The notes under the pieces are model-generated. The model did not search any database, was not told where the DNA came from, and saw only the letters and a program-made list of their open reading frames with translations. The position numbers were made by a program, and so were the translations under genes. A DNA stretch of 44,685 nt from Candidatus Accumulibacter contiguus (lineage in GTDB: Bacteria > Pseudomonadota > Gammaproteobacteria > Burkholderiales > Rhodocyclaceae), in the NCBI RefSeq assembly GCF_012940005.1, contig NZ_SPMX01000078.1:1-44685 (forward strand), given 5' to 3'. This document shows positions 1 to 16,824 of the stretch, one piece after another. The first letter of the stretch is position 1. Every line of letters begins with the position of its first letter.

Positions 1-1
1 G

Positions 2-181
2 CTCCAAGCGTGGGGATGTGAGCTATTTAAAAGTGCACGCCAGTCACGGCGTACTCTAATCTCTTTGTGGCATCGGATGATCGAGCTGTTTACAAGTTAT
101 CTCATCCCTTCTTGGGAGGTGTTGTGGAAGGCAATTGCAAAGGGTTACTCGGCCGGTACGCTAGAGATAGACACGTCGTAG
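2..181 (+). CDS. 3' end of an unrecognised gene (partial)
   Basis: An open frame enters from the left edge and runs 59 codons to a TAG at 179-181. The readable C-terminus is rich in aromatic and aliphatic residues (for example SLWHRMIELFTSYLIPSWEV, then WKAIAKGYSAGTLEIDTS), which looks like protein rather than random translation. I do not recognise the family, and the frame could be chance because only 180 bases are visible. Base composition is less GC-rich than the rest of the window. Confidence 0.3.
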   Translation, partial: LQAWGCELFKSARQSRRTLISLWHRMIELFTSYLIPSWEVLWKAIAKGYSAGTLEIDTS

Positions 182-481
182 ATCTTTGCTCGTTCGTATG
201 GTGTTTTTTTTGTACCCGGTTTATTACTTAGTGTGATTGTTAATATAAATTTTTATTTCCGTGAAAAAAAGTCGGAAGCATTACTTCTGCAAAAAACGTA
301 ATCTGCAAATGCAAATTTGCATTTTATTTTAGGAGTTATCCGAAGTGATTTATTATGCCGGGAACTGCTGACGACTTCTCACTTACAGCAGAAGGCATCT
401 GTTTCCAGCTGGTCGCCGGGCATTACGACCTATCTGGCATCAGAAAACTGCAATTAACAGGGGGTAGAAACATCGCCCCGC
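182..481. other. AT-rich intergenic stretch without a supported gene
   Basis: This 300-base stretch lies between the left-edge partial frame and the 3' end of the AraC-type gene. It is clearly more AT-rich than the rest of the window, with an eight-T run near 204-211 and several A/T runs. It holds an 18-bp perfect palindrome at 307-324. A short + frame starting at 355 runs into the antisense of the regulator gene and has no family resemblance, so I do not call it. Confidence 0.5.
307..324. promoter_or_regulatory. 18-bp perfect palindrome
   Basis: AAATGCAAATTTGCATTT is a perfect inverted repeat with no spacer, preceded by a further GCAAAT half-unit. It sits in AT-rich DNA next to a purine-rich AGGAG (331-335). 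Such symmetry fits a dimeric regulator site or a short hairpin. No gene start is convincingly placed next to it, so its target is unknown. Confidence 0.35.
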
Positions 482-16272: not shown

Positions 16273-16824
16273 TTACGGTTCAAATAGTGAATCTTCCGTG
16301 ATGGCTACCAAACATTCTTCGATGGCCAAGTCGGAATAAATATTCACCCACTCGCCGGTATGGCGCATGTATGACATATTGAATCGCTCTCTTCCGGTAT
16401 ATTCCAGTCGGGAGAATTTCGCTTCAAAAAACGGCACCATTGCATCCGGGTGTGGGACGCAATACTTCGCACAAAAGTAAAAATAATGGCGATACCACTT
16501 GGTATAAATATCGGCGATATAGTTGTGCTGAAATTGGTCTGGCGCAGGCGGAGACTGGATATACTTCGGCTTCAGAACCGTCTCGACGACAGCAATTCCC
16601 GGCATAAGTTGCCCAAGCCATTGATTACAAATAGTTCCCAAATTGCATGCACAGGTTTGGTGCGTTAATTGTCAATATAAATCAACATGTTAAATCAGGC
16701 CGGGAATTGCTGTCTCGACGAGTTCGTCCGCTTTTTGTTGCAAATCGGCCTTTACCTGCGCTGACACCTTGGGTGCGACAGGTTTGGGCGGGCTGAAAAC
16801 CCACGCTTTTCGAATATTAGCCAT
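16273..16824 (-). pseudogene. Small conserved hypothetical gene interrupted by a MITE-like insertion
   Basis: The 5' part begins at ATG 16824 behind a strong GGAGGAGAT ribosome site and encodes MANIRKAWVFSPPKPVAPKV and on to KADELVETAIPGLI, ending at TAA 16690-16692. The 3' part lies in the same frame (16587 down to 16273) and encodes VVETVLKPKYIQ through WYRHYFYFCAKY and FNMSYMRHTGEWVNIYSDL. Removing the 127-bp insertion plus one 5-bp duplication joins GAACTCGTCGAG to ACGGTTCTGAAG as ELVETVLK and gives a continuous 139-codon gene. The inserted 132 bases keep the frame but add TAA and TGA stops. A TTG (16641) or ATG (16605) inside the insertion could still start a truncated C-terminal protein. 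The family, which I recall only as ~140-aa hypothetical proteins, has no known function. Confidence 0.75.
16588..16714. mobile_element. 127-bp MITE-like element with 16-bp terminal inverted repeats
   Basis: The ends are GACAGCAATTCCCGGC (16588-16603) and its exact complement GCCGGGAATTGCTGTC (16699-16714). Immediately outside each end is TCGAC (16583-16587 and 16715-16719), a 5-bp target-site duplication. The interior is AT-rich and non-coding, unlike the surrounding gene. The length, perfect inverted repeats and duplication fit a non-autonomous miniature transposable element moved by a DDE transposase elsewhere in the genome. No second copy was noticed in this window. Confidence 0.85.

Follow-up and report, generated by a model that had tools for sequence, protein, structure and literature searches.

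The window analysed here, a stretch of 44,685 nucleotides from Candidatus Accumulibacter contiguus, contains a small gene whose reading frame is interrupted by a short sequence with inverted ends, and this raises the question of what the inserted sequence is, what moved it there and whether it has relatives elsewhere. We consider it highly probable that it is a 123-bp non-autonomous MITE which entered a DUF3024 gene through a 9-bp staggered cut, most likely moved in trans by a DDE transposase from an IS family with 9-bp target duplications in which CAGCARTTCY is the end of most members. The element represents a new family of MITEs, although not a new type of element, and a likely parental IS family is identified.

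Element boundaries and target duplication

The MITE copy, to which no strand is assigned, occupies positions 16590–16712 of the window, its ends having been set by comparison with three further copies in the same genome (C56, C72 and C133). Its 123 bp are bounded by perfect 14-bp terminal inverted repeats (TIRs) reading CAGCAATTCCCGGC, at 16590–16603 on the plus strand and, at the opposite end, at 16699–16712 on the minus strand, and are flanked by two copies of the 9-bp target duplication (TSD) TCTCGACGA at 16581–16589 and 16713–16721, likewise without strand. The original prediction had rightly recognised inverted repeats and a flanking duplication, but its 127-bp element with a 16-bp TIR (16588–16714) and a 5-bp TSD was wrong; the other copies differ in the outer bases and have 9-bp TSDs, which rules out the longer repeat and places the ends at 16590 and 16712. 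The TIR appears to extend 2 bp further ("GA...TC") simply because TCTCGACGA has TC as its first and GA as its last two bases. The insert of 132 bp (123 + 9) is the same under the corrected ends, and the restoration of the reading frame therefore holds despite the correction. The element encodes nothing, being too short at 123 bp for a transposase gene, and the G+C content of the elements is 37–42 %, compared with 60 % for the window.

The inverted repeats and the duplication are not a product of chance. The combination of a 14-bp inverted repeat and an exact 9-bp duplication on its flanks, at a length of 60–400 bases, occurs once in the window and in none of 100 first-order Markov sequences. 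The 16-mer, with up to three mismatches allowed, has four matches in the window where 0.52 are expected, two of them being the element's own ends, one an IS end at 357–372 and one a site with three mismatches; over the whole genome, with up to two mismatches, there are 20 matches compared with one for the reversed control.

The interrupted DUF3024 gene

The interrupted gene (16273–16824, minus strand) is recognised by its PF11225 match, its frame and the intact site in relatives; without the insert it has 139 codons, and two in-frame stops lie within the element. The part 3' of the insert matches DUF3024 (PF11225) with an E value of 3.5e-14 and 53.4 bits, above the curated cut-off of 24.9. The flanks, when joined in a script, restore the frame as had been predicted and read through 139 codons, and the rejoined frame aligns over its full length, with small gaps, to a 138-aa plasmid protein of Oscillatoria nigro-viridis (WP_015179781). 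Homologues of the gene include two without the insert, namely this Oscillatoria protein and one in another genome of the same genus (G001), where the uninterrupted junction reads DELVETVL. In a comparison of the C-terminal piece with 28 genomes of the genus, matches at E ≤ 0.001 were obtained solely in the genome studied here and in G001, and no relative of the piece was found in viral contigs. The G001 gene lacks its middle (L141 1500–1775) and, given this loss, the genus may be able to do without DUF3024.

The stops that the element was claimed to bring into the gene frame are present, a TAA at 16692–16690 and a TGA at 16674–16672, and translation in that frame would reach the TAA 20 bases into the element. 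We infer that the gene has become null or, at most, retains a 5'-truncated form, which for the host amounts to the loss of one gene. It is unlikely, we think, that the broken gene still works by restarting translation within the element to give a shortened DUF3024 protein. The ATG at 16605 and the TTG at 16641 noticed earlier do lie in frame inside the element, and the post-insert part is an open frame that by itself spans positions 22–106 of the 112 in the profile, such that a product restarted at the ATG would keep nearly the whole of it; however, a simple scan detected no promoter-like site in the element, no clear ribosome-binding site is seen by eye ahead of this ATG, and a recent insertion would equally leave the downstream frame open.

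Copies in the same genome

A search of the genome with the element gave five matches, four of them full length (the window, C56, C72 and C133) and one truncated (C18). Exact 9-bp TSDs flank all four full copies (TCTCGACGA, GGGAAATGT, AGTATTTGT and TGCAAGAAT), and one end each of C72 and C133 reads CAGTAATTCCCGGC instead of CAGCAATTCCCGGC. The window copy is 95.1 % identical to C56, 82.1 % to C72 and 81.3 % to C133, and the four fall into two pairs, window/C56 at 95.1 % and C72/C133 at 99.2 %, with 80.5–82.1 % between pairs. The 99.2 % identity of the latter pair suggests activity not long ago. The truncated copy (L030 2641–2720) consists of the right half only and, by eye, adjoins the 3' part of a PIN-domain-like gene; the 9-mer on its right flank has no second occurrence in that contig. 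A search of a further 27 genomes of the genus gave no match to the MITE at E ≤ 0.001, nor was there any in the plasmid collection or in viral contigs.

The presumed parental IS family

If the MITE moves in trans, a transposase acting on similar ends should be sought, and a family of DDE transposases with such ends does exist. In the same genome, an IS of 1665 bp (C96:136759–138423) carries CAGCAGTTCCCGGCATAA at both ends, identical to the MITE TIR at 13 of 14 bases, and its transposase gene is broken by frame breaks and stops. At the left end, 23 of its initial 28 bases, those of the TIR counted, are shared with MITE copy C56; beyond the TIR the two do not clearly match (16/31 bases at the left end, 13/31 at the right). 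Three more right ends of this IS, all partial, lie at C96:136205, at C102:1502 and at the start of the window itself, where positions 1–370 (plus strand) are the right end of an approximately 1.67-kb IS cut by the contig edge, 99 % identical to positions 1298–1665 of the C96 IS. This window copy includes the C-terminus of the transposase (tblastn, E 4e-6) and the terminal repeat CAGCAGTTCCCGGC as its end motif (357–370, minus strand). By tblastn and profile, transposase matches in this genome lie in C96, C102 and the window, as broken or partial genes only, and no intact IS with exactly the MITE ends was found in it, the C96 copy being broken and the other three partial as assembled.

Two side observations concern these copies. 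Positions 371–379 of the window read ACGACTTCT, equal to the nine bases before the left end of the IS on C96 (L062 2251–2260, C96:136750–136759), and the right flank of the C96 IS differs from it; the shared flank reflects either IS copies misjoined in the assembly or recombination between copies. Moreover, the transposase frame in L062 2260–3924 and L075 367–1502 is broken, by eye, often near A runs, one of which the two copies have in common; the cause could be decay, a programmed shift or an error of sequencing.

The transposase has homologues in Legionella israelensis (WP_058501406, annotated as hypothetical) and in Gloeothece (WP_013335080, annotated as an ISNCY family transposase). In NCBIfam the only matches, to IS4 and IS1634, fall below the cut-off; with Pfam the Legionella protein has no match and the Gloeothece protein sub-cut-off matches to DDE_Tnp_1 and DDE_Tnp_1_assoc. 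A three-protein profile at E ≤ 1e-20 matches nine of 369 genomes of the class, including the one studied here, and no relative of the transposase was found in viral contigs.

We examined 28 transposase-bearing loci for their ends, and CAGCARTTCY is the usual end, shared by most members. Both ends and flanks were readable in 18 loci (including L143, and L099 with weaker ends), several of which share an organism and are thus not 18 independent cases; in the other ten an end, both ends or a flank is missing (L155, L156, L157, L164, L159, L162, L174, L176, L144 and L075). An exact 9-bp TSD flanks 11 of the 18 (L154, L158, L168, L170, L171, L172, L173, L175, L147, L145 and L143), a count from an end-pair search biased towards duplications, the bias being of most consequence for L158 with its off-consensus right end. 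One further IS (L163) shows eight of nine TSD bases, and six have no flank match (L166, L161, L100, L146, L062 and L099). In L159 (G446), where the gene start is cut by the contig edge and only one end is readable, the exact CAGCAATTCCCGGC lies about 200 bp past the transposase stop. Some members are short and retain a partial transposase, namely L168 1090–2120 (G473) of 1031 bp, which has its own exact 9-bp TSD, and L161 1409–1867 (G256) of 459 bp; it is possible that L168 represents a step towards a MITE.

A single IS family, so far poorly classified, is indicated by the ends, the duplication length and the transposase alike, and it hereby gains a usual terminal signature, CAGCARTTCY with a 9-bp duplication. 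We presume that this ISNCY-like family is the parent of the MITE. Judging from the shared ends and the duplications, an ISNCY-like transposase supplied in trans would cut at the CAG ends of the element, and the target would be cut with a stagger of 9 bp. The same three shared properties make a test of trans-mobilisation straightforward.

The ISAs1 family has CAG-type ends, and one might ask whether the MITE was moved instead by another DDE transposase of this genome, for example of the ISAs1 or IS4 family, with CAG ends and 9-bp duplications. The genome does hold seven DDE_Tnp_1_assoc and 24 DDE_Tnp_1 matches; however, the seven DDE_Tnp_1_assoc loci (L063, L067, L068, L070, L071, L072 and L081) contain no exact TIR save the MITE copy itself in L081, and just one unpaired TIR-like site, in L063, when up to two mismatches are allowed, in a check that covered these seven, with L070 cut by a contig end, and part of the 24 DDE_Tnp_1 loci. 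We therefore rejected the ISAs1 family as parent, the seven loci carrying no paired ends of the MITE type, and regard the broader alternative as very unlikely. Together with the copies elsewhere and the insert-free homologues of the gene, the existence of a DDE transposase family with similar ends supports the MITE reading of the original prediction.

Comparison with known elements

IS of the ISNCY type from Anabaena, Calothrix, Nostoc, Gloeothece and Legionella israelensis share CAG-TTC type termini with the MITE, and encode a transposase of about 425–465 aa whereas the MITE encodes nothing. Copies from Anabaena, Calothrix (2) and Nostoc have exact 9-bp duplications like those of the MITE; none is seen at those from Gloeothece and L. 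israelensis.

In contrast to the present case, at least one published bacterial MITE is described without a parental IS having been found: for the hupL MITE of Thiomargarita nelsonii, the relevant passages of PMC4853749 report no likely parental IS in ISfinder, and the authors suggest an origin from a PD-(D/E)XK (Yhg-A) transposase, while the ends of our MITE point to a DDE IS family. As described there, the hupL element is, like ours, short and gene-free, with inverted ends, a flanking duplication and many copies, one of them in a gene; it differs in having a 19-bp inverted repeat and a 10-bp direct repeat (PMC4853749) rather than a 14-bp TIR and a 9-bp TSD. A 187-nt MITE in sbp of Microcystis aeruginosa PCC 7806 also interrupts a gene; it has imperfect 9-nt ITRs and is ascribed by the authors to an ISL3-type transposase (PMC11448079). 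Our MITE was not found in the open-licence PMC literature among the matches listed, where the exact TIR strings match only unrelated papers.

Similar MITEs in other genomes

One point of interest is whether the MITE as such may have moved from one class to another. Further copies of the ends, at similar spacing, are present not only in the same genome but in four others. A scan of a genome collection, stated to comprise 84,980 species, for both ends 80–110 bases apart returned six stretches in these four genomes, two in Thiocystis violacea, one in Lamprocystis purpurea, one in a Chromatiaceae MAG and two in a Planctomycetota MAG, and further copies were then found in the Thiocystis and Chromatiaceae MAG genomes. 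Including our four, there are 14 full elements (four from Thiocystis, one from Lamprocystis, three from the Chromatiaceae MAG and two from Planctomycetota), of which 11 have exact 9-bp TSDs, one matches at eight of nine bases and two have none. All are 122–125 bp long, a constancy that is only partly free given the scan window of 108–138. Those of Thiocystis, Lamprocystis and the Chromatiaceae MAG, of 122–124 bp, are similar to our MITE, and the twelve proteobacterial elements align nearly gap-free; the Planctomycetota elements resemble ours in the TIR only.

These twelve elements also bear on the idea that the sequence is a structured RNA or a regulatory repeat acting on transcripts, repeats of such a type being known as Correia-, ERIC- or REP-like. 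The strand does fold through its TIRs (DNA fold z of -2.9, with 3 of 200 shuffles equally good), and this idea is compatible with the MITE reading. However, the window has no Rfam match at the gathering threshold, the consensus fold of the twelve contains TIR pairs only, none with both sides changed, and the 9-bp duplications show transposition; we hold it to be extremely improbable.

For the interiors, compared with the TIRs removed against 400 shuffles and with the partner reverse-complemented as a control, our copies and three of the four Thiocystis copies gave z of 2.1–3.8 (12 comparisons, in each of which between 0 and 13 of the 400 shuffles scored as high). With the Chromatiaceae MAG our copies gave 2.7–3.4 for its copies C38 and C198 and 0.5–1.3 for C62; with Lamprocystis they gave 0.3–1.6, and with one Planctomycetota copy -0.4 to 0.4. 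Values of 5.4–9.3 were reached by four pairs among Thiocystis, Lamprocystis and the Chromatiaceae MAG, and the Lamprocystis element is tied to our copies only via Thiocystis. In some pairs involving our copies the reverse-complemented control came near the forward score (own_W/Thio_C26, -6 vs -5; own_C56/Chrom_C38, -7 vs -6), so that part of the similarity to the gammaproteobacterial elements is what would be expected of two inverted A+T-rich ends.

Let us consider, nevertheless, that the MITE might form a separate lineage which has moved between beta- and gammaproteobacteria as a unit of nearly fixed length (122–124 bp) with a homologous interior. Its plan, a 14-bp TIR and a subterminal TTGATT-type motif in the same place, would then be maintained because the ISNCY-like transposase has to be bound, and the element would be a long-lived parasite of the IS rather than a recent deletion product in each genome. 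We offer this scenario tentatively and with some doubt, having lowered its odds because of the control scores just described. It is mildly unusual to find the element in betaproteobacteria as well as gammaproteobacteria, and the similar elements of Chromatiaceae suggest a MITE that has either spread horizontally or persisted for a long time. In the Chromatiaceae MAG (G221), the body of the suspected IS was not found; four of its contigs (L148, L149, L150 and L151) break off 53, 121, 54 and 54 bases into an element that ends in exactly CAGCAATTCCCGGC, which fits, as expected, a multi-copy IS whose body went unbinned.
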